41,834 nucleotides of DNA from an uncultured Acetobacteraceae bacterium (GTDB lineage Bacteria; Pseudomonadota; Alphaproteobacteria; Acetobacterales; Acetobacteraceae): positions 1 to 41,834 of the forward strand of contig CAIRCM010000142.1 in NCBI GenBank assembly GCA_903877125.1, written 5' to 3'. The position numbers were made by a program, and so were the translations under genes. Under the pieces are notes generated by a model, which saw nothing but the letters and a program-made list of their open reading frames with translations, was not told the origin of the DNA and searched no databases. Of this stretch, positions 1-16,664 are shown piece after piece. Position 1 is the first letter of the stretch, and each line of letters begins with the position of its first letter.

Positions 1-730
1 CCTGGACGTCGTAACGGTCGGCGACGGACAGGCAGTTGTCGATGGCGGCGGGGGTGGTGCCCCAGTCTTCATGCAGTTTCAGGCAGGATGCGCCGGCGCG
101 CAGCATTTCCTCCAGCGCCTGGGGCTGCGATGCGTTGCCCTTGCCGGCGAAGGCGAGGTTGACGGGCAGTCCCTCGGCGGCTTGCAACATGCGCGCGAGA
201 TGCCAGGGGCCCGGCGTGCAGGTGGTCGCGGCGGTGCCGGTGGCGGGGCCGGTGCCGCCGCCAACCAGGGTGGTGATACCGGAGGCGATTGCGTCATCCA
301 CCTGCTGCGGACAGATGAAATGAATATGCGAGTCGATCCCGCCGGCGGTCAGTATTTTCCCCTCGCCGGCAATGATTTCGGTGCCGGGGCCTATGATGAT
401 ATCGACATTCGGCTGAACGTCGGGATTGCCGGCCTTGCCGATCTTGTGGATGCGGCCGTTCAGGATCGCGACATCGGCCTTCACGATGCCCCAATGATCG
501 ATGATCAGCGCGTTGGTGATGACGGTATCGACGGCACCTTGGGCCTGGGAAAATTGCGACTGGCCCATGCCGTCGCGGATGACCTTGCCGCCACCGAATT
601 TCACTTCCTCCCCGTAGAGCGTGAAATCCCTTTCGACTTCGACAATCAGGTCAGTATCGGCGAGGCGCACACGGTCCCCGACGGTGGGGCCGAACATGTC
701 CGCATACGCGGCTCGGGTGATGCGGGCCAT
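1..730 (-). CDS. ureC: Urease subunit alpha (UreC), 3' end cut by window edge
   Basis: This is the catalytic subunit of the nickel urease, which hydrolyses urea to ammonia and carbamate in the cytoplasm. The first 243 residues are visible (family length is about 570). They begin [19 protein letters not shown], the classic UreC start. The nickel ligands in the S-H-I-H-F motif fall at His135 and His137, and the lysine that is carbamylated to bridge the nickels is Lys218 in C-L-K-L-H-E-D, matching the usual numbering within one residue. The ATG at 730 has an AGAGGAA ribosome-binding site. It is the last gene visible of the urea operon, 13 bases after the second TIR gene. The accessory genes ureE, ureF and ureG are presumably beyond base 1. 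Confidence 0.97.
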
Positions 731-743
731 GATGCTGTTCCTC

Positions 744-1160
744 TTAAGCCGCCGTTGCGGGCTGATGTTGCTGTAGCCGGTCCCTGATTTCCATCGCGAC
801 GGCGGTTAGGTCGCGTTTTCCGATCCTCACGAAATTCCATCGGCGCAATTGGACCGGCATCCCGGCAGGCATGCCCTTACTGTTTGCCAGTATGGGGATA
901 ATGATCTTGCCAGTAGCGATCGCGGCGCCGACCTCCGACATAACGGCGGGGCTGCCGAGAGCGGCGGCGGTCATCAAAATGATTACGACATCGGCGGCGC
1001 CCATCACCCTGCGGAGGTAACTACCCCAATCGCTACCTATCGGAATGCCGGTGTCGAAGTCGACGTCGATTCCGGAATCCAATAGCGCGCGGCCCAACTC
1101 ACGGGCGACCGCGCCGTCGCGATGGGCATAGGAAAGGAATACCTTAACGGGCGTTTGCAT
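744..1160 (-). CDS. Small stand-alone TIR-domain protein (second of pair)
   Basis: This 138-residue protein is essentially a single TIR domain. It starts with strand A ([11 protein letters not shown]), has a helix rich in Ala/Leu, then D-V-V-I-I-L-M around residues 57-63 and S-P-A-V-M-S-E-V-G at 70-78. Glu76 is in the place of the catalytic glutamate of NAD-cleaving bacterial TIR domains. No transmembrane segment, coiled coil or effector domain is present. The ATG at 1160 has a GAGGA site 7 bases upstream and overlaps the end of the preceding TIR gene by 17 bases, so the two are translationally linked. It lies between ureB and ureC. Whether it degrades NAD, makes a signal nucleotide or is only a scaffold is unknown. 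The domain call is confident; the role is not. Confidence 0.85.
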
Positions 1161-1545
1161 GACCGATCCTCGCTTTCAGTTCCACGAGATAGGTGTCGAA
1201 ATCGTTGAGCTGGCGCTCGACAGTTCCCGTCAACGCGCCATCCCCACCGGATTCAGCCAGATCGCGCTTCGTCATACCATGGAAAATTGGTACGACGCGC
1301 TTTCTATTCAGCCGCATCACGCCGACTTCCATCCAAACCCAGGCGCGGCTCCTGGAAAACGGTGTGAATAGAACCACGAGCTCGGTGGCTTGTTCCAGGA
1401 GACCGGACAGGCGCTCCGTAACGTCGTCACCGGATTCAAGGTCGTAAGCATCGATCAGCACCTCCGCACCTGCTTCCCCGATGCACCGTGCCATCTGGCG
1501 GGCAATCCAGGAATCCTGCGATCCGTGGGAGACGAAAACTTTCAT
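1144..1545 (-). CDS. Small stand-alone TIR-domain protein (first of pair)
   Basis: This 133-residue single-domain TIR protein opens with MKVFVSHGSQDSWIARQ, the typical strand A and helix of the fold. It then has A-E-V-L-I-D at 27-32, E-L-V-V-L-F-T at 55-61 and the S-R-A-W-V-W-M-E-V-G block at 66-75. Glu73 is the expected catalytic glutamate and the Trp-x-x-Glu pattern is typical of TIR NADases. It starts 18 bases after ureB ends and overlaps the next TIR gene by 17 bases, so it belongs to the urea operon. It is clearly diverged from the neighbouring TIR protein, so this is not a recent duplication. No Thoeris ThsA or other partner is visible in the window. Its role is unknown. Confidence 0.85.
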   Translation of the reverse strand: MKVFVSHGSQDSWIARQMARCIGEAGAEVLIDAYDLESGDDVTERLSGLLEQATELVVLFTPFSRSRAWVWMEVGVMRLNRKRVVPIFHGMTKRDLAESGGDGALTGTVERQLNDFDTYLVELKARIGHANAR

Positions 1546-1563
1546 GGTTGCGACGCGGTCCTG

Positions 1564-1872
1564 CTAATCCAGCGGTCCGGTCACGATACCCCGGAACCCG
1601 TAAACACGGCGCGTCCCGCGATAGGGAATAAGGATGATCTCACGGGTCTGGCCGGGTTCGAAACGCACGGCGGTGCCGGCGGCGATATCCAGGCGCTGAC
1701 CTCGCGCGGCGGCGCGGTCGAACGACAGCGCGCCGTTGGTTTCCGCGAAATGGTAGTGGCTGCCAACCTGGATCGGGCGGTCACCGGTGTTGGCGACGGT
1801 CAGCGTGGTGCGCGGTAGGCCGGCATTCAGTTCGATGTCGCCAGGTTCGGGGAGGAGTTCTCCGGGGATCAT
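1564..1872 (-). CDS. ureB: Urease subunit beta (UreB)
   Basis: The 102-residue small structural subunit of urease assembles with UreA and UreC into the (alpha-beta-gamma)3 enzyme. It begins [16 protein letters not shown] and carries the family-typical [10 protein letters not shown] motif at about residues 37-46, followed by P-G-Q-T-R-E-I and G-x-R-x-V-Y-G-F. Length matches the family. It starts 12 bases after ureA. What is odd is that its usual neighbour ureC does not follow directly: two TIR genes intervene. Confidence 0.97.
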
Positions 1873-1884
1873 TGCACGTACTCC

Positions 1885-2187
1885 TTATCTGATCGGCTCA
1901 TGCACAGTCACCAGCTTGGTCCCATCCGGGAACGTCGCCTCCACCTGCACGTCATGGATCATCTCGGCGATCCCATCCATCACCTGATCCCGGGTCAGCA
2001 CCTTGGCGCCGGCCTGCATCAGATCAGCCACGGAACGGCCATCCCGAGCGCCTTCGATCACGAAATCGGTGATCAGGGCGACAGCCTCGGGATGGTTCAA
2101 TTTCACGCCGCGTTCCAGCCGGCGGCGCGCGACGATCGCGGCCATGCTGATCAGCAGCTTGTCCTTCTCGCGGGGGGTCAGGTTCAT
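1885..2187 (-). CDS. ureA: Urease subunit gamma (UreA)
   Basis: This 100-residue smallest structural subunit of urease has the canonical N-terminus [13 protein letters not shown], then [18 protein letters not shown], and ends with [14 protein letters not shown], all diagnostic of UreA. It is encoded as a separate subunit, not fused to UreB as in Helicobacter. It sits 12 bases downstream of ureD and 12 upstream of ureB, in one operon. Confidence 0.98.
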
Positions 2188-2199
2188 GGAAAAGCCTTC

Positions 2200-3042
2200 T
2201 CAACACATCCAAACGCGGGGCAGTGGGCGGGGTGCCCGAATAATGTTCAGCACCGCCGCGACGGCTTGGCGCAGCAGTGCGCTGTCGGGCGCCAGCATAC
2301 GCGCGACCAGCATGCCGTTCCATGCGCTAACGCCTGTTTCGGCGCCATGATCGGCAAGAACATCGCGCACCGGGGTCAGAAATGCCTCGGCATCCGGCGC
2401 GACATGCAGCAGCGTGGCCATCGCGCGTGCACCGGCGGCGATGGCTGGCCTGGCCAGGATGTCATGCAGGGCACCGTCCATACGGATCGCGTCTTGCAGC
2501 AGCCAACGGTCGTCTCGGCGGACGTGGATTAGATCGCGCAGCCAAGCGTTCGTAACCTGCTCACCCATGGCCGCGCGGCCGAATATCAGGGACTCAACGC
2601 CCAGGAAGGAGGCATCCGGGGCCAAATTGATCTCCAAACGCCGGTCCAGCGCGCAATTGTCGAACAGGATCGTCTCCTGTGGCAGCCACTCCATCGCCGC
2701 ACCGGCTTCGACGTCCACTTGGGTCCGCACGAACGACGGAAGTCCGCCCGGCGGTGCTCGATAGAACCGCTCGGCGGCCTGCGCGGAAATGGTGGCCCGC
2801 GCGTCTTTCCCGATCGCGAAACTCGCAATCAGCCGGTCGCCGCTGGCCACGCCACCCGAGGTATTCAGCGTCGTCGCATCCGCCCAGCCCGCGGTCACCG
2901 GCCGAGGAAAGCGCGCCTTCAAACAGCCGGCCTGCCGCAAATCGTCCAGAACCGTGTCCGCGCCCCGGCGCTTGAACGTCACACGCAGTTCCCCAACCGC
3001 GCGCTGGAACCCAGCTTCAGACAGACAGGCGCCGTCGTACAT
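2200..3042 (-). CDS. ureD: Urease accessory protein UreD
   Basis: UreD is a chaperone that binds apo-urease and, with UreF and UreG, helps deliver nickel. This 280-residue protein shows family features: G-x-L-R-V-T-F-K-R-R near the start, T-S-G-G-V-A-S-G-D-R, W-L-P-Q-E-T-I-L-F-D-N-C, and E-S-L-I-F-G-R-A-A-M-G-E. I chose the ATG at 3042. A longer reading upstream to 3129 lies within urtE and looks like out-of-frame sequence. A GGGAGG lies about 15 bases before this ATG, a little far. The gene overlaps the end of urtE by 26 bases, which joins the transport and urease halves of the operon. Confidence 0.93.
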   Translation of the reverse strand: MYDGACLSEAGFQRAVGELRVTFKRRGADTVLDDLRQAGCLKARFPRPVTAGWADATTLNTSGGVASGDRLIASFAIGKDARATISAQAAERFYRAPPGGLPSFVRTQVDVEAGAAMEWLPQETILFDNCALDRRLEINLAPDASFLGVESLIFGRAAMGEQVTNAWLRDLIHVRRDDRWLLQDAIRMDGALHDILARPAIAAGARAMATLLHVAPDAEAFLTPVRDVLADHGAETGVSAWNGMLVARMLAPDSALLRQAVAAVLNIIRAPRPLPRVWMC

Positions 3043-3712
3043 CGGCTTCGTCAAGGTCCTCCCGACGGCCGGACAGCACGATGTCGCCGCGGTCCATGAC
3101 CGCGATCGTCTGCGCCAGCGCTTGGGCAAAATCGAAATATTGCTCGACCAGCAGGATGGCCATCTCCCCGCGTGAGCGCAACAGGTCGATCACCCGGCCG
3201 ATATCCTTGATGATGCTGGGCTGGATGCCCTCGGTCGGCTCATCCAGCACGATCAGGCGCGGTTTCATGATCAGTGCCCGAGCAATCGCGAGTTGCTGCT
3301 GCTGGCCACCGGACAGATCGCCGCCGCGCCGGCGGAGCATGGTTTTCAAGACCGGAAACAGGTCGAAGATCTCGTCCGGAATTTTCCGGTCGCGGCTCGG
3401 CAGCACCGCGAAGCCGGTTTCCAGGTTTTCCCGCACCGTGAGCAGCGGGAACACGTCGCGTCCTTGCGGTACCCAGGCGATGCCGCGCCGGGCCCGCTCG
3501 TAGACCGGAAGACGGGAGATTTCCTGACCTTCCCACTTGATCGATCCGGCGGAAATCGGATGCGCGCCGGTGATGGCGCGCAGCAGCGATGTCTTGCCGA
3601 CGCCATTCCGGCCGAGGATGCAGGTAACGCTGCCGGGACTCGCGGTGATGGATACCTGACGCAGGGCAATGGCGGCGCCGTAGTGCAGGTCGATACGGTT
3701 GACTTCCAACAT
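3017..3712 (-). CDS. urtE: Urea ABC transporter ATP-binding protein UrtE
   Basis: This is one of the two ATPases (LivF-like) that power the UrtABCDE high-affinity urea importer. The 231 residues contain a Walker A G-R-N-G-V-G-K-T-S at about 35-43, the signature L-S-G-G-Q-Q-Q-Q-L-A-I-A-R-A-L at about 135-149 and the Walker B L-I-V-L-D-E-P-T-E-G-I-Q-P-S-I-I. The E-G-I-Q-P-S-I-I stretch is characteristic of UrtE as opposed to amino-acid LivF proteins. It starts 2 bases after urtD and overlaps ureD. Its assignment to urea is strengthened by the linked urease genes. Confidence 0.95.
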   Translation of the reverse strand: MLEVNRIDLHYGAAIALRQVSITASPGSVTCILGRNGVGKTSLLRAITGAHPISAGSIKWEGQEISRLPVYERARRGIAWVPQGRDVFPLLTVRENLETGFAVLPSRDRKIPDEIFDLFPVLKTMLRRRGGDLSGGQQQQLAIARALIMKPRLIVLDEPTEGIQPSIIKDIGRVIDLLRSRGEMAILLVEQYFDFAQALAQTIAVMDRGDIVLSGRREDLDEADVRRRLSV

Positions 3713-3714
3713 GA

Positions 3715-4476
3715 TCAGCGTCCCAGATAGACTTCGACCACGCGGGGATCGGCGCTGACGTTGTCGATGGAGCCTTCGGACAACACCGAACCCTCATGCA
3801 GCACGGTGACCTTCACGTCCAAGGCACGGACGAAGGCCATGTCGTGCTCGACCACCACGACGCTGCGGGTTTTGTTGATCTCGCGCAGCAGTTCGGCTGT
3901 TTGCTCAGTTTCGGCGTCGGTCATACCCGCGACGGGTTCGTCGACCAGCAGCAGTTGCGGTTCCTGCGCGAGCAACATGCCGATCTCCAGCCATTGCTTC
4001 TGGCCATGCGACAGATCGCCGCCAAGACGATGGCGCTGGTCCTTCATGCGGACGGTTTCGAGCACGGACTCGATGCGCGTCCGTTCTTCAGCGGTTTCCT
4101 TCGCCCATAGCGAAAAGCGAGGTTTCCGGTCGCCCGCCAGTGCCAGCAGGATATTGTCCCAGACAGTGTGCGGCTCAAACACCGTCGGCTTCTGAAATTT
4201 CCGCCCGATGCCAAGCGCCGCGATGGCGGGTTCGTCGAGCTGAGTCAGATCGGTATTGACACCGAACATCACCTTGCCCGTGTCCGGGCGGGTTTTGCCG
4301 GTGATCACGTCCATCATCGTCGTCTTGCCGGCGCCGTTGGGCCCAATCACCGCGCGCATCTCGCCTTTTTCCAGCACCAGCGACAAGGCGTTCAGGGCGC
4401 GGAAACCGTCGAAAGAAACCGTCACGCCACCGAGGTAGAGCAGGGTGTCGCCGGGGAGAGTTTGGGTCTCGGTCAT
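3715..4476 (-). CDS. urtD: Urea ABC transporter ATP-binding protein UrtD
   Basis: The second ATPase (LivG-like) of the urea importer has 253 residues. Walker A is G-P-N-G-A-G-K-T-T-M-M-D, the signature is L-S-H-G-Q-K-Q-W-L-E-I-G-M-L-L (the H-G-Q-K-Q-W-L-E-I form is typical of UrtD), and Walker B is L-L-L-V-D-E-P-V-A-G-M-T. The start is the ATG at 4476, overlapping the urtC stop in an ATGA arrangement. The same frame stays open upstream through urtC to 5226, which could be misread as a 503-residue fusion, but that part is the wrong frame of urtC. Confidence 0.95.
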   Translation of the reverse strand: MTETQTLPGDTLLYLGGVTVSFDGFRALNALSLVLEKGEMRAVIGPNGAGKTTMMDVITGKTRPDTGKVMFGVNTDLTQLDEPAIAALGIGRKFQKPTVFEPHTVWDNILLALAGDRKPRFSLWAKETAEERTRIESVLETVRMKDQRHRLGGDLSHGQKQWLEIGMLLAQEPQLLLVDEPVAGMTDAETEQTAELLREINKTRSVVVVEHDMAFVRALDVKVTVLHEGSVLSEGSIDNVSADPRVVEVYLGR

Positions 4477-5567
4477 TCCGCGACCTCCAGGACCGCGACG
4501 GGTTTCGCGGCGCGCTTCGCGAACAGACCCATGATGCCCTTCGGCAGGAACAGGGTAACGAAGATGAACAATGCCCCGAGGGCGTAGAGCCAGTAGTCGG
4601 GCAACATGCCGGTGAACCAGGTCTTGCCGAAATTCACCGCGACCGCGCCGAGAATGGCGCCGCTCAGCGTGCCGCGCCCGCCGACCGCGACCCAGATCAC
4701 GGCCTCGATGGAGTTCGCGGGGGCGAATTCGCTCGGATTGATGATGCCGACTTGCGGCACGTAGAGCGCGCCCCCGATCCCGGCCATCACGGCGGACAGC
4801 GTCCAAACCACCAGCTTGTAGGCTTCCGGCCGGTATCCGAGGAAACGGGTGCGGGATTCGGTGTTGCGCACCGCGATCAGCACCTTGCCGAAGCGGGACT
4901 GGACCACGAAGCGGGCGACTAGATACTGCACACACAGGCACAAGGCGGAGATGACCATCAGCGCCGACCTCGTGCTGTCGGCCTGGACATTGAGCCCAAG
5001 GATATCCTTGAAGTCGGTCATACCGTTGTTGCCGCCGAAACCCATGTCGTTGCGGAAGAATGCCAGCAGCAGCGCGTAGGTCAGCGCCTGCGTGATGATC
5101 GACAGGTAGACCCCGGTCACGCGGGAGCGGAAGGCGAGCCAGCCGAAACCCATCGCCAGCACGCCCGGCACGATCAGCGCCATTGCCACCGCGAACGGGA
5201 ACCACTGGGAGCCCTGCCAGTACCATGGCAACTCATGCCATCCCAGGAACACCATGAAGTCGGGCAGTTCGGCATTGCCGTAAACGCCGCGGGTGCCGAT
5301 CTGGCGCATCAGGTACATGCCCATCGCGTAACCACCCAGGGCGAAGAAAGCGGCATGGCCAAGGGACAGAATGCCGGCGAACCCCCAAACCAGATCCACC
5401 GCCAGGGCCAGCATCGCGTAGCACAGATATTTCCCAGCCAGCGCGACGACGTAGGTCGGAATATGCAATGCCGATCCGACCTCGGTGGTCTGATTCAACA
5501 ACGCCAAGGCAACTGGGACGCCGAGGGACAACGCCAAAGTGAGGTATGCGGTGCGATCGAGTTTCAT
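4473..5567 (-). CDS. urtC: Urea ABC transporter permease UrtC
   Basis: LivM-like permease of the urea importer, 364 residues with about nine hydrophobic segments. Family hallmarks include G-F-A-G-I-L-S-L-G-H-A-A-F-F-A-L-G-G-Y and the late V-W-V-A-V-G-G-R-G-T-L-S-G-A-I-L-G-A block. It overlaps urtB by 4 bases (ATGA) and urtD by 4 bases, so subunit translation is probably coupled. It sits in the inner membrane and pairs with UrtB. Confidence 0.95.
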   Translation of the reverse strand: MKLDRTAYLTLALSLGVPVALALLNQTTEVGSALHIPTYVVALAGKYLCYAMLALAVDLVWGFAGILSLGHAAFFALGGYAMGMYLMRQIGTRGVYGNAELPDFMVFLGWHELPWYWQGSQWFPFAVAMALIVPGVLAMGFGWLAFRSRVTGVYLSIITQALTYALLLAFFRNDMGFGGNNGMTDFKDILGLNVQADSTRSALMVISALCLCVQYLVARFVVQSRFGKVLIAVRNTESRTRFLGYRPEAYKLVVWTLSAVMAGIGGALYVPQVGIINPSEFAPANSIEAVIWVAVGGRGTLSGAILGAVAVNFGKTWFTGMLPDYWLYALGALFIFVTLFLPKGIMGLFAKRAAKPVAVLEVAE

Positions 5568-7147
5568 GACTCCACCGCCCTACCCTTGAGCGGGAACATC
5601 CCCCGCGGCCGCCTTTGAATGAACAGTATCAGCAGGACCAGCACCACGATTTTGGCGACCACCGCGCCAGCCACGGGTTCGAGGAACTTGTTGACGATGC
5701 CCAGCGTCAGCGCGCCCAGCGTGGTACCCCACAGGTTCCCGACGCCGCCGAACACGACGACCATGAAACTGTCGATGATGTAGCTTTGACCAAGGTTCGG
5801 GGACACGTTGTCGATCTGCGACAGCGCCACCCCGGCCATGCCGGCGATGCCCGACCCCAATCCGAACGTCAGTGCATCGATCCAGGGCGTGCGGATGCCC
5901 ATCGCGGCGGCCATACGTCGGTTCTGCGTAACCGCCCGCATCCGCAGACCCAGCGAGGTATAGCGCAGCGCGGCCATCAGCCCCGCGAGCACCACGGCGG
6001 AAAACAGAATAATATACATGCGGTTCCAGGTCAGGGTCAGGCCGCCGAGCGCGGTCGCCCCGCTCATCCAGGGCGGTGTGTCCACGTCCTGGTTGTTGGC
6101 GCCGAAAATGGTGCGCACGGCCTGCTGCAGGACCAGCGAGAGGCCCCAGGTGGCGAGCAAGGTCTCCAACGGCCGGCCGTAGAGCCAGCGGATCAACGTA
6201 CGCTCGATGACGATGCCTATCGAACCGGAGACCATGAACGCCAGCGGCACGGCGAACAGCAAACTGGCGCCATACAGGCCGGGCGTATGCGCGCGCATGA
6301 ACTGCTGCACCACGAAGGTCGTGTAGGCCCCGATCATCACCATCTCGCCATGTGCCATGTTGATGACGCCCATCACGCCGAAGGTGATGGCCAGACCGGC
6401 TGCCGCGAGCAGCAATACGGAGCCGAGGCTCAGGCCGTAATAGATGCTCTGACCGACGCTCCAGATCTGAGCCAGACGATCGATGGCGGTGAGTGCGGAG
6501 GTGATGGCAGCAGCGACCGCGGGGGGTTGATCGGACAGGGAAGCCAGGAAACCGCGCGCATCTATGTCGCCGCGCGCGCGCAGGACACCAACGGCCGCGA
6601 CCCGATCCGCCTCCGCCCCATCCGGTGACGCCAGTACAACGGCCGCTCGGGCCTGCTGCATGCGGACTTTGACCGCGGGGTCGGCTTCTTTCTCCAGAGC
6701 CTTGGTCAGCGCTGGGAGAGCGGCGGGGTCGGCTGCGTGGAAGACCGCCTCAGCGGCGGTCATGCGCGTCGCAGCGTCGGGCGAGAAAAGGCGGAGTGCG
6801 CCCAGGGCGGCATCCATCGCCCCGCGGATCGCGTTGTTGACCTTGACGGGCTTGACGGCGCCGGCCTCAGCCGGTGTGCCGGTCAGCGCGCCGACATATG
6901 TGCCGTCATCCTGTTTGATAAAGAGCGTATGATCGGGCCGGAAATACAATTTCCCATTTTGCAGCGACCCGATGATCGCGGCGGCGCGTGGGCTGCCGGA
7001 AGCGACGAGCTGACCGACGCCTTCATGCACCGAATCGAAACTGCCGGACGACAGTGCGGTGACCGCGTCGTCCACCGGGTCGGCCTTCGACGGGCCTGAC
7101 GCCAGGGACACGGCCGCGATCATCAGAAAGGCGAGGAGACGGCGCAT
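5564..7147 (-). CDS. urtB: Urea ABC transporter permease UrtB
   Basis: LivH-like permease of the urea importer, about 527 residues. As usual for UrtB, it has an N-terminal signal peptide (MRRLLAFLMIAAVSLASG), then a roughly 200-residue periplasmic domain absent from LivH, then the membrane domain with G-V-M-G-V-I-N-M-A-H-G-E-M-V-M-I-G-A. I prefer the ATG at 7147 because the signal peptide begins cleanly there; a GTG at 7159 in the same frame is possible and adds four residues. It follows urtA after 59 bases containing a terminator-like hairpin and ends overlapping urtC. Confidence 0.94.
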   Translation of the reverse strand: MRRLLAFLMIAAVSLASGPSKADPVDDAVTALSSGSFDSVHEGVGQLVASGSPRAAAIIGSLQNGKLYFRPDHTLFIKQDDGTYVGALTGTPAEAGAVKPVKVNNAIRGAMDAALGALRLFSPDAATRMTAAEAVFHAADPAALPALTKALEKEADPAVKVRMQQARAAVVLASPDGAEADRVAAVGVLRARGDIDARGFLASLSDQPPAVAAAITSALTAIDRLAQIWSVGQSIYYGLSLGSVLLLAAAGLAITFGVMGVINMAHGEMVMIGAYTTFVVQQFMRAHTPGLYGASLLFAVPLAFMVSGSIGIVIERTLIRWLYGRPLETLLATWGLSLVLQQAVRTIFGANNQDVDTPPWMSGATALGGLTLTWNRMYIILFSAVVLAGLMAALRYTSLGLRMRAVTQNRRMAAAMGIRTPWIDALTFGLGSGIAGMAGVALSQIDNVSPNLGQSYIIDSFMVVVFGGVGNLWGTTLGALTLGIVNKFLEPVAGAVVAKIVVLVLLILFIQRRPRGMFPLKGRAVES

Positions 7148-7160
7148 TACATTGTCCACG

Positions 7161-7198
7161 AAAAAGAGTGGGGGCGGCCGGGGAGGAGACGGCCGCCC
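7161..7198 (-). terminator. Hairpin plus T-run between urtA and urtB (attenuator)
   Basis: A perfect 9-bp inverted repeat, GGGCGGCCG (7172-7180) with CGGCCGCCC (7190-7198), has a 9-base loop. Read on the minus strand it is followed six bases later by TTTTT (7165-7161), the form of an intrinsic terminator. It lies inside an operon, so partial termination or 3'-end protection of urtA mRNA is likely. That would give more binding protein than permease, a common arrangement in ABC import operons. Confidence 0.75.
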
Positions 7199-7206
7199 GC
7201 CACCGC

Positions 7207-8532
7207 CTAGGCCTTCTTACCGGCTGTGCAATGGCCAGTTTTCACGTTGAAGGCCCCGCAATGCAGTGGTGCCCGCCAATCGCCGATCAGGTCCTTGGTA
7301 TCGGCGACGTAGGGCGACCACTCCTGGGCCACCACAAGGCCCGGCGTCTGGGACACGATGTTGAACTGTCCATCGGCCTGGATTTCGCCAATGAGCACGG
7401 GCTTCGTGATGTGGTGGTTCGGCATCATGGCGGAATATCCGCCCGATAGGTTCGGAACCGAAACGCCGAGCATGGCGTCGATCACCGCGTTGGAGTCGGT
7501 GGTGCCGGCGGCTTCCACTGCTTTGACCCACATGTTGAAGCCGATGAAGTGGGCTTCCATGGGGTCGTTCGTGGTGCGGGTCGGCTTCTTCGTATAGGCG
7601 TGCCACGCGTCGATGAACGATTTGTTGATCGAGGTGTCCACGCTCTGGAAATAGTTCCACGCGGCGAGATGGCCGAGCAGCGGCTTGGTATCGATGCCGG
7701 CGAGTTCTTCTTCGCCGACGGAGAAGGCAACGACCGGGATATCGGTTGCCTTGAGGCCCTGGTTGCCGAGTTCCTTGTAGAACGGCACGTTCGCATCGCC
7801 GTTGATGGTCGACACGACAGCGGTTTTCTTACCGGCGGAGCCGAATTTCTTGATCGAGGCGACGATGTTCTGCCAGTCTGAATGTCCGAACGGCGTGTAG
7901 TTGATCATGATGTCGTCTTTGGCGACGCCCTTCGCGATCAGGTAGGCTTCCAGAATCTGGTTGGTCGTGCGCGGATAGACATAGTCGGTGCCGGCCAGCA
8001 CCCAGCGCTTCACCTTGTTTTCCTTCATCAGGTAATCGACCGCCGGGATCGCCTGCTGATTCGGAGCCGCGCCGGTGTAGAACACGTTACGGCTGCATTC
8101 CTGCCCTTCGTACTGCACTGGGTAGAACAGGATGGAGTTCAGCTCCTCGAAGACCGGCAGCACGGACTTGCGCGACACCGATGTCCAGCAGCCGAAGGTC
8201 GCGGCACATTTTTCGACCGAAATCAGCTGGCGGGCCTTTTCCGCGAACAGTGGCCAGTTCGATGCGGGATCGACAACCACGGCCTCCAGTTTTTTGCCGA
8301 GCAGGCCGCCTTTGGCGTTTTGCTGCTCGATGAGCATGAGCATGACGTCCTTCAGCGTCGTTTCGCTGATCGCCATTGTGCCGGAGAGCGAGTGCAGAAT
8401 GCCGACTTTGATGGTGCCGGACGTTTCCGCGGCGGCGGCGGTTTTGACCGCGCCGATGGCTGCGACCGTAGCGGCGGCAGCACCCAGGCGGGCCAATCCG
8501 CGGCGTGATATCGTTGGTTCTGTGATTGCCAT
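7207..8532 (-). CDS. urtA: Urea ABC transporter substrate-binding protein UrtA
   Basis: Periplasmic urea-binding protein, 441 residues, first gene of the operon. The N-terminus S-R-R-G-L-A-R-L-G followed by an Ala-rich hydrophobic stretch ending A-A-A-A looks like a twin-arginine (Tat) signal, common in UrtA proteins. Family motifs visible are K-V-G-I-L-H-S-L-S-G-T-M-A-I-S-E, the F-G-C-W-T-S-V-S-R-K-S-V-L-P-V-F-E segment and L-F-Y-P-V-Q-Y-E-G-Q-E. I chose the ATG at 8532 with AGAGG just upstream; 28 further in-frame residues upstream do not resemble a signal. A sigma-54 promoter lies about 80 bases before the start. Confidence 0.96.
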   Translation of the reverse strand: MAITEPTISRRGLARLGAAAATVAAIGAVKTAAAAETSGTIKVGILHSLSGTMAISETTLKDVMLMLIEQQNAKGGLLGKKLEAVVVDPASNWPLFAEKARQLISVEKCAATFGCWTSVSRKSVLPVFEELNSILFYPVQYEGQECSRNVFYTGAAPNQQAIPAVDYLMKENKVKRWVLAGTDYVYPRTTNQILEAYLIAKGVAKDDIMINYTPFGHSDWQNIVASIKKFGSAGKKTAVVSTINGDANVPFYKELGNQGLKATDIPVVAFSVGEEELAGIDTKPLLGHLAAWNYFQSVDTSINKSFIDAWHAYTKKPTRTTNDPMEAHFIGFNMWVKAVEAAGTTDSNAVIDAMLGVSVPNLSGGYSAMMPNHHITKPVLIGEIQADGQFNIVSQTPGLVVAQEWSPYVADTKDLIGDWRAPLHCGAFNVKTGHCTAGKKA

Positions 8533-8610
8533 TTGCCTCTGTCCTGTTTCCCGGTTCCGGGCTTGTTGCGTTCCGACGCGGGCTGTGGGTAGCGCCGCTG
8601 ACAGATAAGT

Positions 8611-8627
8611 ATGCAACTAGTGTGCCA
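8611..8627 (-). promoter_or_regulatory. Sigma-54 (RpoN) promoter of the urt-ure operon
   Basis: On the minus strand the sequence TGGCACACTAGTTGCAT matches the RpoN consensus TGGCAC-N5-TTGCA. The invariant GG (8626-8625) and GC (8614-8613) are separated by exactly 10 bases. Transcription would begin near 8601, giving a leader of about 70 bases before urtA. An NtrC-like half site TGCACC lies about 60 bp upstream (8690-8685), without a convincing second half. Nitrogen control of urea uptake is established in many Proteobacteria. Confidence 0.88.
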
Positions 8628-9208: not shown

Positions 9209-9550
9209 CTAGCCGAGTTCGCGCTTCAGCGCCGCGAGAGCGTGTTCCAGTGTCTCGCCCAGGACCCAGCCTTTGGCGTCGCTGATCGCATAAAACGCGT
9301 CCACGGTTTCCTGCGAGGCTTTGACGTTGAACTGCACGTTGCGGCCGGTGCGATGGCGGCGCTGCACCCGTTTCGGCGCTGGCGCCGGCGCCGGCGCGGG
9401 CTGCTCGCGGCTGCGGAAATGGGCAGCTTCGGTGATCGCGCGCACCTGGTCAGCCGCCGGCGCCGAGGAGTCGGGCCCCGGCTTCGGCGCGAAACCGCTG
9501 ATGTCGAGATCGTCCGCGTCGAAAATGCTCGCTCGCGCGCTGGTCATCAC
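9209..9550 (-). CDS. Ribbon-helix-helix partition-type DNA-binding protein (ParG-like)
   Basis: A 113-residue protein. Residues 1-65 look disordered and basic, with an Ala-Pro repeat encoded by a GGCGCN hexamer run (9375-9398) and then R-R-H-R-T-G-R. The last 45 residues read as a beta strand (N-V-Q-F-N-V-K-A) and two helices (Q-E-T-V-D-A-F-Y-A-I-S and L-G-E-T-L-E-H-A-L-A-A-L-K-R-E-L), the layout of a ribbon-helix-helix dimer. It overlaps parA by 4 bases. A small ParA followed by a short RHH protein with an unstructured tail is the layout of type Ib plasmid partition systems. The fold and role are inferred from pattern, not from close similarity to a known protein. Confidence 0.65.
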   Translation of the reverse strand: MMTSARASIFDADDLDISGFAPKPGPDSSAPAADQVRAITEAAHFRSREQPAPAPAPAPKRVQRRHRTGRNVQFNVKASQETVDAFYAISDAKGWVLGETLEHALAALKRELG

Positions 9551-10242
9551 GCCACCCTCCGTTCCGCCGCTGCCGGCCGCGGTTCCTTCAAGATCGCCAC
9601 CGTCTCGGCAGCGAAAGCGCGGGCGTTCGCCATGGCGGCGGCGATGTTCGGCACCTGCGTATCATCGAGGCCCGTCAGCGTACCGCCGAAGGCGAAGATG
9701 GCGCGATACGCCTCCCGCTCATGGATCTGGGTGCCGAAGACGCGGATGCCGGCGCTGAGGAATTCCGCTTCGATGCTTTTCAGCGTGCGCGGCCGGATCG
9801 CCGCGCTGGTGCGGGTGAACAGGACGGCGAGCGGAATGGCCTTGGCGAAAGCCCGTTCCTGGCGACGGATGAGCGCGATCGCCTTGACCGCTTCCGCTGC
9901 GTCAAGCTGGGAACCCTGGGTCGGAATAATCGCCAGATCGGCGCGGGACAGCGCGTAGCCGACCATCATCGATGCCGTGCCTTCGAGGTCGACCACCACG
10001 AAAGCGGTCTCCACGGCGGCCTGTTCGATCGTGTCGATAATTGTGTCTTCGGTGATATTCGCCAGGATCGTCAATTTCTCAGGCTTGCCCGGGCGGCTGC
10101 CCCAGCGGGAGACGGGCTTGTTGGGATCGGCGTCGATGAAGGTGACGGTGGCGCCACGCTCCGCCAATTCGGCCGCGAGAAGGACGGCCGAGGTAGACTT
10201 TCCGGCGCCGCCTTTGGGGCTGGCGAAGACGATGGTGGGCAT
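9547..10242 (-). CDS. ParA-family partition ATPase (short, type Ib-like)
   Basis: A 231-residue deviant Walker A ATPase. It starts MPTIVFASPKGGAGKSTSA, with the K-G-G-A-G-K-S-T loop containing the signature lysine at position 11. Later come F-I-D-A-D-P-N-K-P and V-V-V-D-L-E-G-T-A (Walker B). It lacks the N-terminal HTH of larger type Ia ParA proteins, so it fits the short type Ib class. A GAGG site lies 6 bases before the ATG at 10242. Upstream lie palindromes and direct repeats suited to autoregulation or a centromere. No replication gene is visible and the flanks are core genes, so the module appears chromosomal. Confidence 0.88.
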   Translation of the reverse strand: MPTIVFASPKGGAGKSTSAVLLAAELAERGATVTFIDADPNKPVSRWGSRPGKPEKLTILANITEDTIIDTIEQAAVETAFVVVDLEGTASMMVGYALSRADLAIIPTQGSQLDAAEAVKAIALIRRQERAFAKAIPLAVLFTRTSAAIRPRTLKSIEAEFLSAGIRVFGTQIHEREAYRAIFAFGGTLTGLDDTQVPNIAAAMANARAFAAETVAILKEPRPAAAERRVA

Positions 10243-13324: not shown

Positions 13325-13738
13325 ATGCCACGAGTCACAGGTGTTCTCGAAACGTCGCTGTATGTGCAGGACCTCGGCCGCGCGCGGCGCTTTTATGAGC
13401 GTGTGTTCGGGTTCGAGGTGTTTTTCGCCGATGCCCGCATGTGCGCCATGGGCGTGCCCGCCAGCCAGGTCCTGCTGCTGTTTCAACGTGGTGCGACGTT
13501 GGAACCGGCGCCGGTCAACGGCGGCTTCATCCCCCCGCATCATGGCGACGGGCCGTTGCATGTCTGCTTCGGCATCCCCTTCGGTGAACTCGAAGCCTGG
13601 ACGGCGCATCTGAAATCGCTGGGCATCGCCGTCGAAAGCCGCCTGCGTTGGGCGCGGGGCGGTACGAGCCTGTCTTTCCGCGATCCGGACGACAATTCGG
13701 TCGAGGTCGCAACCCCTGGCCTTTGGCCGCACCACTAG
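13325..13738 (+). CDS. VOC-family (glyoxalase/bleomycin-resistance fold) protein
   Basis: A 137-residue vicinal-oxygen-chelate protein. It begins with V-L-E-T-S-L-Y-V-Q-D-L-G-R-A-R-R-F-Y-E, the standard first beta-alpha unit, and ends F-R-D-P-D-D-N-S-V-E-V-A-T-P-G-L-W, with the usual D-P-D-G-N-x-x-E block and its metal-ligand Glu. Metal ligands are probably a residue near the N-terminus, His76-79 and the late Glu. The substrate cannot be predicted. It lies 47 bases after thiG and just before the transporter, and may be cotranscribed. Confidence 0.85.
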   Translation: MPRVTGVLETSLYVQDLGRARRFYERVFGFEVFFADARMCAMGVPASQVLLLFQRGATLEPAPVNGGFIPPHHGDGPLHVCFGIPFGELEAWTAHLKSLGIAVESRLRWARGGTSLSFRDPDDNSVEVATPGLWPHH

Positions 13739-13747
13739 CCGCCGGGC

Positions 13748-15043
13748 ATGGCACGCGCCACGACTCTGGTCGCTTTGGGCGCGCTGCTGGTGCTCGCCGG
13801 GATCGCCGCGGCATGGCCGTCGATCCTGTCGGAGCAGGTGGCGGCCGCGGCGATTTTCCTTGGCAGCTATGTCGCGCTCGCGATGGGAAAGATCCCAGGA
13901 CTGGCGATCGACCGGGCGGGCGTGGCGCTGGTGGGGGCAGGACTGATGGTGGCGGCAGGGGTGTTACCCCTGAAGGATGCCTATCGCGCGATCGACCTCG
14001 ACACGATCACACTGTTGTTGGGCATGATGATCGTGGTGGCCAACCTGCGCCTCTCGGGCTTCTTCGCGCTGGCCAACGCATGGGTGGTGGTTCGGGTGCG
14101 TCGGCCTGTCACGTTGCTGGCAGCGGTGATCGCGGTGTCGGCGGTGTTCTCGGCGTTTCTGGTTAATGACGCGATCTGTCTGGTGCTGGCGCCGCTGGTC
14201 GCTGACGTGGCGAAGGGCGCGCGGCGCGATCCGGTGCCGTATTTGCTGGGGGTCGCCTTGGCGTCCAACGTCGGGTCCGTGGCGACAATAACCGGCAACC
14301 CGCAAAACATGATGATCGGCAGCCTGTCGGGCATTCCCTACACACAGTTTGCGGCCGCCCTGACGCCCATCGCTTTGGCGGGCGCACTTCTGACCTTCGC
14401 GCTGCTGGTGGTCCTCTATCCCGCCGAATTCCTGACCGGCGGCCGGTTGGCCGCCCGACACGCCGAAGCCCGGATCAACCGGGTGCTGGTCGGGCGGTCG
14501 CTGCTCGCGACCGTCGCGGTGGTGATATTGTTTTTCGCCGGTCAACCGCCGGCCAAAGCTGCTATCGTCGTGGGCGGGCAGCTGCTGCTGACCCGTCGAA
14601 TACGCAGCACGCGAGTCTATGCCGAGATCGACTGGTCGCTGCTGTTGATGTTCTCGGGTCTGTTCATCATCGTCGCCGGCGCCGAGCACGCGCTTCTGAC
14701 AGGAGATGTGCGGGCCGCGGCCGGGGGGTTGCATCTGACACGACCCTGGGTGCTGAGCCTGCTGACTGCCGTGCTGGCCAACCTGGTGAGCAATGTTCCG
14801 GCGGTGCTGATGCTGCAACCGTTTGTGGCCGGCCTGCCCGATCCGACAAAGGCATGGCTGACAGTTGCAATGGCATCCACCCTGGCGGGCAATTTCACCA
14901 TGCTGGGCTCGATCGCCAATTTGATCGTGATCGAAAAGGCGTCCCGCCGGGGTGTCGCGATCGGTGGCTGGGCCTATGCCCGGGTGGGCATCCCGCTGAC
15001 CGTGCTCACCCTGGCGTTCGGCACCTGGTGGCTGGTTCAATAA
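13748..15043 (+). CDS. ArsB/NhaD-superfamily anion/ion transporter
   Basis: A 431-residue membrane protein with about 11 hydrophobic segments. The repeated signature regions S-A-F-L-V-N-D-A-I-C-L-V-L-A-P-L (about 136-151) and N-L-V-S-N-V-P-A-V-L-M-L-Q-P (about 340-353) are the paired hairpin loops of the ion-transporter superfamily that includes ArsB, NhaD and SLC13. T-I-T-G-N-P-Q-N and L-G-S-I-A-N-L-I-V-I add further family evidence. The closest type is the uncharacterised YbiR-like group. No arsenic genes are nearby, so an arsenite role is not supported. Substrate unknown. Confidence 0.85.
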   Translation: MARATTLVALGALLVLAGIAAAWPSILSEQVAAAAIFLGSYVALAMGKIPGLAIDRAGVALVGAGLMVAAGVLPLKDAYRAIDLDTITLLLGMMIVVANLRLSGFFALANAWVVVRVRRPVTLLAAVIAVSAVFSAFLVNDAICLVLAPLVADVAKGARRDPVPYLLGVALASNVGSVATITGNPQNMMIGSLSGIPYTQFAAALTPIALAGALLTFALLVVLYPAEFLTGGRLAARHAEARINRVLVGRSLLATVAVVILFFAGQPPAKAAIVVGGQLLLTRRIRSTRVYAEIDWSLLLMFSGLFIIVAGAEHALLTGDVRAAAGGLHLTRPWVLSLLTAVLANLVSNVPAVLMLQPFVAGLPDPTKAWLTVAMASTLAGNFTMLGSIANLIVIEKASRRGVAIGGWAYARVGIPLTVLTLAFGTWWLVQ

Positions 15044-15101
15044 ACACGGTTGCGCACGACACCGAAATCGCTGTGAATTGGCGGAAACAGAGAGGAACGC
15101 C

Positions 15102-16664
15102 ATGTCACAGATCACCCAATTCCTGCGCCGCGCCGTGCAGATCAACGGGCGCGGAACCGCGACAATTTGCGGCGACCGGCAGCAGGACTGGATCAGCTTC
15201 GCGGATCGGGTTGCTCGGCTCGCTGGCGGACTCGCGGCGTTAGGATTCGTGCCGGGCGACCGGATCGGGATTCTGTCGCTGAACTCCGACCGGTATCTGG
15301 AGAGTTTCTTCGGTCTTAGCTGGGGCGGTTTCGTGTTCGTGCCCATCAATACCCGCCTGGCACCGCCCGAAATCGTGTTCTGGCTGACGGATTCCGGCTG
15401 CGCGGGGCTGCTGGTGGACGACGCCTATCTGCCGGTGCTGCCGAAGTTTCTGCCGGAGACGCCAGCGGTGCGGCATGTGATACATATCGGGGACGGTCCG
15501 ACACCGGACAGGCAGATATCGTATGAGGCGCTGATCGACGGATCGGCGCCCGCCGGGGACGCGGGACGACGCGACAGCGATATCGCCGGTATCTTCTATA
15601 CCGGCGGGACGACTGGCCGGTCGAAAGGCGTGATGCTCAGCCACGACAATGTCCTGTCCAATGCCAACAATATCGCGACCGCGGTGCCCTTCCTTCCGGA
15701 GACATGCTATATTCACGCCGCCCCGATGTTTCACATCGCCGATGGCGCGATGACTTTCATCGTGACCGCGAACGGGGGCAGGCATGTGTTCCTGCCCCCG
15801 TTCGATCCGGGCACCTTTCTTGCCATGATCGAAACGCATCGGGTGACGGTGTCGCTGATCGTGCCGACCATGATCAACATGACGGTGCATCATCCGGATG
15901 TGACCACACGCGATCTGTCGAGTTTCAAGGACATGCTGTACGGCGCCTCGCCGATGCCGGAAGCCGTGATTCTGCGGGCAATGGAGGTGATGCCGAACGT
16001 CCGGTTCACGCAGGCATACGGTCAGTCCGAGGCGTCGCCGCTGATGACCCTGATGCCGCCGGAGGCGCTCTGGATCGACGGGAAACTGTCGAAACGTTTG
16101 AAATCGGCCGGGCGAGGCGTCCTGGATTGCGAAATCGCGATCATGGACGAGAACGACCGGGAAGTGCCGCGTGGCACGGTGGGCGAGGTCTGTGGGCGCG
16201 GCAAGATGGTTATGTTGGGGTATTGGAAACAACCCGAGCTGACTGCGCACACACTGCGTAACGGATGGCTGCACACCGGCGATGGCGGCTACATGGACGA
16301 GGACGGGTTCGTCTACATCGTCGACCGGGTGAAGGACATGATCGTGAGCGGCGGAGAAAATGTGTACTCGGCCGAGGTCGAGGAGGCGTTGTACGCCCAT
16401 CCCTCCGTAGCGGAATGCGCGGTGATCGGCGTGCCCGACGATAAATGGGGCGAGCGGGTGCACGCGATCGTCCGTTTCAAGGAGGGGATGGCCGTGTCCG
16501 AGGAGGAACTGATCCGGTCGTGCCATGAGCGGATCGCAGGTTACAAGTGTCCGCGGAGCGTGATGATCCGGGATGAGGCTCTGCCGTTGTCCGGGGCGGG
16601 GAAGATTCTGAAGTCGGAGTTGCGGAAGCCGTATTGGCAGGGGTTGGAAAAACGGGTGAACTGA
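15102..16664 (+). CDS. Acyl-CoA synthetase (AMP-binding, FadD-like)
   Basis: A 520-residue adenylate-forming enzyme that activates a carboxylic acid to its CoA thioester. The P-loop is F-Y-T-G-G-T-T-G-R-S-K-G-V-M-L-S-H (about 166-182). Then come Y-G-Q-S-E-A, the hinge D-R-V-K-D-M-I-V-S-G-G-E-N-V-Y-S-A-E-V-E, and the catalytic lysine in G-A-G-K-I-L-K-S-E-L-R. The ATG at 15102 has an AGAGAGGA site. It resembles medium/long-chain or cyclic-acid ligases; the substrate is not readable. It opens the catabolic island and converges with an enoyl-CoA hydratase gene. Confidence 0.92.
   Translation: MSQITQFLRRAVQINGRGTATICGDRQQDWISFADRVARLAGGLAALGFVPGDRIGILSLNSDRYLESFFGLSWGGFVFVPINTRLAPPEIVFWLTDSGCAGLLVDDAYLPVLPKFLPETPAVRHVIHIGDGPTPDRQISYEALIDGSAPAGDAGRRDSDIAGIFYTGGTTGRSKGVMLSHDNVLSNANNIATAVPFLPETCYIHAAPMFHIADGAMTFIVTANGGRHVFLPPFDPGTFLAMIETHRVTVSLIVPTMINMTVHHPDVTTRDLSSFKDMLYGASPMPEAVILRAMEVMPNVRFTQAYGQSEASPLMTLMPPEALWIDGKLSKRLKSAGRGVLDCEIAIMDENDREVPRGTVGEVCGRGKMVMLGYWKQPELTAHTLRNGWLHTGDGGYMDEDGFVYIVDRVKDMIVSGGENVYSAEVEEALYAHPSVAECAVIGVPDDKWGERVHAIVRFKEGMAVSEEELIRSCHERIAGYKCPRSVMIRDEALPLSGAGKILKSELRKPYWQGLEKRVN

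Follow-up and report, generated by a model that had tools for sequence, protein, structure and literature searches.

Two small genes, TIR1 and TIR2, lie between ureB and ureC in the urea operon of an uncultured Acetobacteraceae bacterium, and this position is not the product of chance or of faulty assembly, because another genome bin (G195, locus L049) has the same order, ureB-TIR1-TIR2-ureC, with the same 836-nt spacing. At the adjacent junction, between ureA and ureB, other species of the genus hold the TIR pair itself, toxin-antitoxin genes and candidate defence genes. We give even chances to the reading that TIR1 and TIR2 together form an NAD-processing module of the immunity or abortive type, an accessory cassette whose expression depends on the urease operon around it.

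The urea operon and its two TIR proteins

The window, the whole stretch of DNA analysed, is an entire contig of 41,834 nt (C142) from a 231-contig genome assembly (genome G000). On its minus strand the operon runs in the order urea-binding protein, two permeases, two ATPases, ureD, ureA, ureB, TIR1, TIR2 and ureC (Table 1). The transporter genes are presumably urtEDCBA, a name taken from gene order. UreA, UreB and UreC all score over their Pfam cut-offs. TIR1 and TIR2 overlap by 17 nt and are separated by 18 nt from ureB and by 13 nt from the ureC start (730), and ureC retains a Shine-Dalgarno-like AGAGGA behind TIR2 (read from the sequence). Elsewhere in the window, a ParA/MipZ-like ATPase gene (9209-10242; Pfam VirC1, CbiA), followed downstream by a small 113-aa ORF, sits between an FMN-reductase-like gene and a biotin carboxylase gene.

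Table 1. Features of the urea operon, in window coordinates
Feature	Position	Strand	Description	Evidence
ureC, 5' part	2..730	-	cut by contig end	Pfam Urease_alpha 6.1e-56
TIR2	744..1160	-	138 aa, stand-alone TIR protein	Pfam TIR_2, alignment of four TIR2
TIR1	1144..1545	-	133 aa, stand-alone TIR protein	Pfam TIR_2, alignment of four TIR1, PDB matches
ureB	1564..1872	-		Pfam Urease_beta 2.7e-43
ureA	1885..2187	-		Pfam Urease_gamma 3.8e-48
ureD	2200..3129	-	longest ORF, true start uncertain	Pfam UreD 2.2e-49 on 2200-3066
Urea ABC transporter genes	3017..8616	-		Pfam ABC_tran, BPD_transp_2, Peripla_BP_5
Transporter ABC ATPases	3017-3712 and 3715-4476	-		Pfam ABC_tran
Transporter permeases	4473-5567 and 5564-7159	-		Pfam BPD_transp_2
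Urea-binding protein	7207-8616	-	longest ORF, likely ATG at 8532	Pfam Peripla_BP_5
Sigma-54-type -24/-12 site, TGGCACACTAGTTGCA	8612..8627	-	upstream of operon	sole zero-mismatch match in the window scan

A preliminary description of this DNA had reported two TIR proteins with a catalytic glutamate in the urea operon. An ORF check found its coordinates, lengths and glutamates all correct, the gene order and Pfam matches bear out the location, and the TIR identity is upheld by Pfam scores and active-site alignments. Both proteins belong to Pfam TIR_2 (PF13676), TIR2 with 60.2 bits and TIR1 with 47.4 bits against a cut-off of 28. When the TIR1 and TIR2 proteins of G000 and G150 are aligned with one another, TIR1 E73 and TIR2 E76 fall in one column that does not vary, and a first-strand Phe (F4/F8) and other core positions are likewise invariant. 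Alignments of all four known members of each protein show F8 and E76 in 4/4 TIR2 and E73 in 4/4 TIR1, the N-terminal part of one TIR1 (G190) being out of frame and so unaligned; they also show a conserved C-terminal stretch of TIR1 beyond the Pfam match. At position E-4, TIR2 has Ala in G000 and Tyr or Trp in the other three. Besides the pair, G000 is rich in TIR proteins: its genome has 13 TIR_2 matches, 12 of them over the cut-off and the pair included, most in large open frames, on contigs C43, C40, C39, C52, C143 and others.

Judged by sequence, both proteins have the conserved Glu and first-strand Phe of catalytic TIR NADases, and F4, W69 and E73 of TIR1 agree with the expected NAD-cleaving site. 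In the PDB, the TIR1 profile matches 7uxr (8.9e-9), 7uwg (1.1e-6) and AbTIR 8g83 (2.3e-6), with TIR NAD hydrolases among the matches; TIR2 matches a wider set, SARM1 and plant TIRs included. Alignments of the TIR1 profile to solved proteins (7uxr, 7uwg, 4c7m, 8g83 and 3h16) span residues 3 to about 100, and in those to 7uxr and 7uwg the W69-x3-E73 of TIR1 is in register with the WxxxE Glu. To our knowledge, none of these solved proteins belongs to an overlapping pair in a metabolic operon. Given the active-site alignments, and the Ala at E-4 of the G000 TIR2, NAD processing is possible for both proteins and better supported for TIR1.

Defence models match both proteins in part. In PADLOC, TIR1 comes closest to the phage-defence candidate PDC-S66 (E 4.9e-9) and TIR2 to a ThsB model (5.1e-7), each match being partial; the ThsB matches, at E 5e-7 and 1e-6, are both partial. 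Neither protein reaches a model cut-off for a ThsB-type TIR. The pair nonetheless resembles ThsB1/ThsB2 of Sau-Thoeris, a type I system with two TIR sensors, in its adjacent TIR genes and, for the pair by sequence alone, in a putative active site made of a Glu facing a Phe (PMC12578639). In that system the TIR that recognises a phage capsid protein brings in its partner; the catalytic Glu of this partner is required, and the active site of only one of the two TIRs is needed (PMC12578639). By analogy, the pair plausibly works with a similar division of labour. It differs in its single domains of about 135 aa, its location in a urease operon, its model scores, which lie well under Thoeris cut-offs, and the failure to find a ThsA/STALD effector. 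Because of the scores and the missing effector, these tests do not place the pair in Thoeris.

A related possibility is that the pair supplies the sensors of a Thoeris-like system and that the matching effector gene lies at another place in the genome. This is quite unlikely. Two-TIR sensor pairs do exist in Thoeris (PMC12578639), and there are weak ThsB/ThcB model matches. Against this, the best NCBIfam scores for a ThsB-type TIR, 31.5 bits for TIR2 and 20.7 bits for TIR1, are far under the cut-off of 220 (the NCBIfam matches to ThcB4 and retron TIR models all fall far short), and a search of the G000 genome for a STALD effector, made with no positive control, returned no match. No effector gene adjoins the pair in G000, where its neighbours are ureB and ureC (ureC is cut and the sequence beyond it unseen), nor does one adjoin the other pairs, except for a HEC-07 candidate in G190, described below.

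Urease gene junctions and the carriers of the pair

The genus was sampled with 33 genomes, each one a species, and 29 of them have ureB. The length of the ureB|ureC junction was counted between the final aligned codon of ureB and the start of ureC; where it is short in the genus, the sequence is usually TGATG or TAATG, in which the stop and start codons overlap. No insert other than the TIR pair was seen there, and the pair occupies it in 2/29 genomes. Beyond the genus, 80 of the 186 ureB-bearing family genomes were sampled (ureB was present in 193/299, 7 of these in the genus), and none has the pair within the stretch fetched. Because the junction is short in 27/29 genomes of the genus (2 to 5 nt) and in 80/80 other family loci (no more than 67 nt), the insertion in G000 is specific to few genomes and interrupts an otherwise tightly coupled junction.

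TIR1 occurs in 4/33 genomes of the genus: G000, G195 (93% identity), G190 (76%) and G150 (51%). The TIR2 profile has matches in 7/33, with four strong ones in the same genomes; the far weaker matches are the TIR1 of G150 and, in G156, G169 and G162, TIR domains within larger open frames. Between G000 and G195, TIR2 identity is 66%. The pair occupies ureB|ureC in these two genomes and ureA|ureB in G190 and G150. In 4/4 carriers TIR1 and TIR2 are adjacent, overlapping and in sense orientation, the overlap being 17 nt in three and 11 nt in G150 (GTG start as read). Both frames are open in G000, G195 and G150; the exception among the four is a frameshift near the start of the G190 TIR1.

Wider searches returned few relatives. 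A scan of genome contigs with two peptide patterns found the same three relatives and one weak betaproteobacterial match. The TIR1 profile, run against 397 family and 395 order genomes (overlapping draws from larger groups, with at most 10 candidates scored per genome), matched only G000, G150 and G195 at E<=1e-10; G190 was presumably not in the draw and is missing here. In 150 family genomes, a single-protein search found G000 and one 30% match, in G091. Every close TIR1 relative found is in a urease operon; this agrees with a functional tie to urease no less than with an accessory pocket. Recent phage or plasmid cargo was considered and set aside: a pattern-limited search of viral contigs confirmed no TIR1 or TIR2 relative, a search of phages with TIR1 only found none, and plasmids gave two weak TIR1 matches (30-34% identity) and no TIR2 match. 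The five loci scanned for tRNA integration sites (L037-L041) had none.

The ureA|ureB junction could be measured in 28/29 genomes, G196 being without ureA beside ureB. It is compact (12-27 nt) in 14/28, 105 nt long in one, and filled by inserts of 512 to 2,535 nt in 13/28. In G000 it is empty (15 nt by the measure used). Eleven of the 13 large inserts hold the TIR pair, BrnT/CopG, BrnT/HTH or HTH-only genes. Their contents are: the TIR pair (G150, G190); an antisense BrnT toxin with a CopG antitoxin (G195, G158, G155, G157, G194); an antisense CopG without BrnT (G161, and broken in G189); a sense BrnT with an HTH protein (G161, G189 and G169, the BrnT frameshifted in G169); an HTH protein alone (G191); an HNH-repeat ORF (G158); a 166-aa ORF without assignment (G193); and an insert without assignment (G171). 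Pfam backs the BrnT, CopG_antitoxin, HTH and HNH_repeat assignments in the ten proteins tried, minus two that had no match. Mapped on an AccC tree, the occupied and empty states require 8 changes by parsimony (26 rows, 12 occupied; the rows of the tree described below minus G152, G160 and G196).

Some further arrangements were seen in passing. BrnT/CopG and BrnT/HTH genes, some broken, recur at ureA|ureB in loci L039-L044 and L068-L070, and in G196 (L066), where ureB-ureC lacks an adjacent ureA, ureB is immediately preceded by a broken BrnT/CopG pair. In 6/80 loci outside the genus, ureA|ureB holds an insert longer than 200 nt, and by eye these inserts differ in content (GNAT-like, globin-like, lysine-rich and others). 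One other genus of the family has the junction occupied by a GNAT-like acetyltransferase ORF (L082 and L093, from G020 and G285), and in L101 a globin-like ORF occupies it, both named by eye.

At the G190 locus (L037), a 541-aa ORF (13497-15122) lies between TIR2 and ureB. It matches the PADLOC candidate defence model HEC-07 with E 1.1e-133 over its first 450 aa and has no Pfam match; the name presumably stands for Hma-embedded candidate. This gene shares with the pair its place in the ureA|ureB junction, directly 3' of TIR2, but encodes one larger protein of another family, and it was not seen among the urease genes of G000, G195 or G150. The C-terminal part of the ORF resembles a stretch also found upstream of ureB in G169.

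The type II BrnT/CopG and BrnT/HTH systems of sister species are likewise small cassettes, patchily distributed at a urease-gene junction. They differ from the pair in their unrelated proteins and in orientation, BrnT/CopG being antisense. Islands, prophages and plasmids are the usual settings in which defence and toxin-antitoxin genes are described. In the open-access literature, where absence is weak evidence, no paper was found on TIR or toxin-antitoxin genes in urease operons, by searches some of which could not separate the gene name ureA from the word urea. None was found with both HEC-07 and PADLOC, and one uses the term Hma-embedded candidate.

The pair is not an isolated oddity: the adjacent junction of the same operon repeatedly holds toxin-antitoxin or candidate defence genes. 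Nor is it unique to one strain and decaying, the outcome named in the preliminary description as fatal to its proposal: it is found in four species-level genomes, and TIR1 is strongly constrained relative to its nearest relative.

Expression, selection and history

The pair appears to be a member of the operon: it lies on the same strand as its neighbours, with the short gaps and overlap given above and no sigma-70-like site in 1-3200 (0 found, 0.8 expected). The space 5' of TIR1 is 18 nt in G000 and G195; at the G150 and G190 loci there is none, since the GTG of TIR1 and the end of ureA with its stop share 4 nt. The sense BrnT modules of G161, G189 and G169, by contrast, start with a TTGAC and a palindromic stretch of their own (read from the sequence). 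With neither promoter room nor a sigma-70-like site, the TIR pair, unlike those modules, would depend on the urea operon for its transcription.

The sigma-54-type site upstream of the urea-binding-protein gene is the sole zero-mismatch match in the window; with two mismatches allowed, the scan gave 14 matches against 20 expected, no more than chance. G150 has a perfect site of this type (TGGCACACCTGTTGCA, 1309-1324 of L051) at an equivalent distance, 6.4 kb upstream of ureA; at no more than one mismatch, a chance match arose in 79/200 shuffles of this locus. Such perfect sites upstream of the operon in both genomes make nitrogen control plausible. Of the earlier proposal that the pair sits in a nitrogen-controlled operon, the position in the operon thus stands, and the control is a plausible reading of these two sites.

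Rates of change were estimated with our own Nei-Gojobori script, at dS values near or above 1, which are saturating, and were undefined for some pairs. Between G000 and its nearest carrier, G195, TIR1 is as constrained as ureC, with dN/dS 0.035 (dN 0.038, dS 1.08) against 0.043, and TIR2 changes faster, with dN/dS 0.21 (dN 0.246, dS 1.15). Across more distant pairs the TIR1 ratio is 0.063 (G000-G190) and 0.26 (G000-G150), both at dS beyond the reliable range; given the latter, strong constraint is established for near relatives only. TIR2 dN exceeds TIR1 dN in 6/6 carrier pairs, which are not independent of one another.

A reading of the pair as the neutral or decaying remnant of some old insertion is very improbable. 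Its patchy distribution, the frameshift in the G190 TIR1 and the want of an aromatic at E-4 of the G000 TIR2 would suit a passenger. The low G000-G195 ratios of both genes, at dS about 1.1 for TIR1, and the open frames of three carriers speak against it.

GC content is 0.55-0.60 in the TIR genes against 0.63-0.70 in the urease genes, in 4/4 carriers. Two trees were used to follow their history: one of a single gene, AccC (29 rows, without G165 and G171, which gave paralogue matches only, and without G164 and G168), and one of two genes, ureB+ureC (26 rows, without G171 and without G167 and G162, whose sequences were too short to keep). Both reject a single clade of carriers, with p-AU 4e-129 for AccC and 2.8e-5 for ureB+ureC. 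On the AccC tree, G190 is far from the other carriers, yet its TIR1 is nearer to that of G000 than the TIR1 of G150 is. The ureB+ureC tree joins G195 to G159, which is empty (99/97), and G190 to G153/G156, and mildly rejects a G000+G195 clade (p-AU 0.013). That the carriers form no clade on either the host-gene or the urease-gene tree indicates movement or repeated loss: the pair has undergone either transfer or several rounds of gain and loss, for the most part independently of its neighbour genes.

Two simpler histories are disfavoured. Joint transfer of the pair with its flanking urease genes does not agree with the places of G195 and G190 on the ureB+ureC tree. A swap of TIR2 alone, suggested by its lower identity between G000 and G195, is disfavoured because the dS values of TIR2 and TIR1 are alike.

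Proposed role of the pair

If the pair is an immunity or abortive module, its operation likely involves: transcription together with the urea-uptake and urease genes from a sigma-54 promoter, mainly under nitrogen limitation; cleavage of NAD+, or synthesis of a cyclic ADP-ribose signal, by TIR1, probably the conserved catalytic subunit; and gating of TIR1 by TIR2, probably a variable partner or sensor. Activation would then deplete NAD+ or produce the signal, and growth would slow. The part assigned to TIR1 draws on F4, W69, E73 and its constraint, and that assigned to TIR2 on its faster change. The module reading is based on the TIR family itself and on the scattered distribution of the pair, together with the accessory pocket and the HEC-07 gene that adjoins the pair in G190. 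Several observations count against it: the constraint on TIR1, like that on ureC, is unusual for a selfish passenger, the Thoeris and retron-TIR model scores are weak, no effector gene adjoins the pair in G000, all close TIR1 relatives found are in urease operons, and the G190 TIR1 is frameshifted.

A different possibility would be that TIR1 and TIR2 regulate urease or nitrogen use, by binding or modifying urease subunits or by coupling the NAD+ level to urea hydrolysis, and that the pair is retained in the operon since it acts on the operon. We consider this unlikely, and it draws its place among the candidates from the location of the pair within ureABC in 4/4 carriers. The ureC-like constraint on TIR1 between G000 and G195, the lack of room for a promoter, and searches that found no further close relative bar the weak betaproteobacterial match are all consistent with it. 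The pair is, however, not conserved with urease across genomes: it accompanies the urease genes in 4/29 ureB-bearing genomes of the genus, leaving 25/29 without it, and in 0/80 family loci outside. Its carriers are scattered and form no clade, TIR2 is poorly conserved, and the adjacent junction carries unrelated toxin-antitoxin genes. The repeated presence of toxin-antitoxin and candidate defence genes at that upstream junction favours an immunity or abortive module over a urease assembly factor.

A broader extension of the immunity module is tentative, and we hold it as possible but doubtful: that in this genus an immunity pocket is embedded within the urease operon, with a promoterless TIR pair selected for co-expression with urease under sigma-54 and nitrogen control. 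Toxin-antitoxin, TIR-pair and other candidate defence genes would come and go between the urease subunit genes, and NAD+-based immunity or growth arrest would be tied to nitrogen limitation.

In this genus, a core metabolic enzyme has defence and toxin-antitoxin genes repeatedly placed among its subunit genes, and the TIR pair apparently has no promoter of its own. Should the pair act on urease, TIR proteins would have a role beyond immunity. Should it instead cleave NAD as a module under nitrogen control, it would connect nutrient state with TIR immunity in a direct and testable way.
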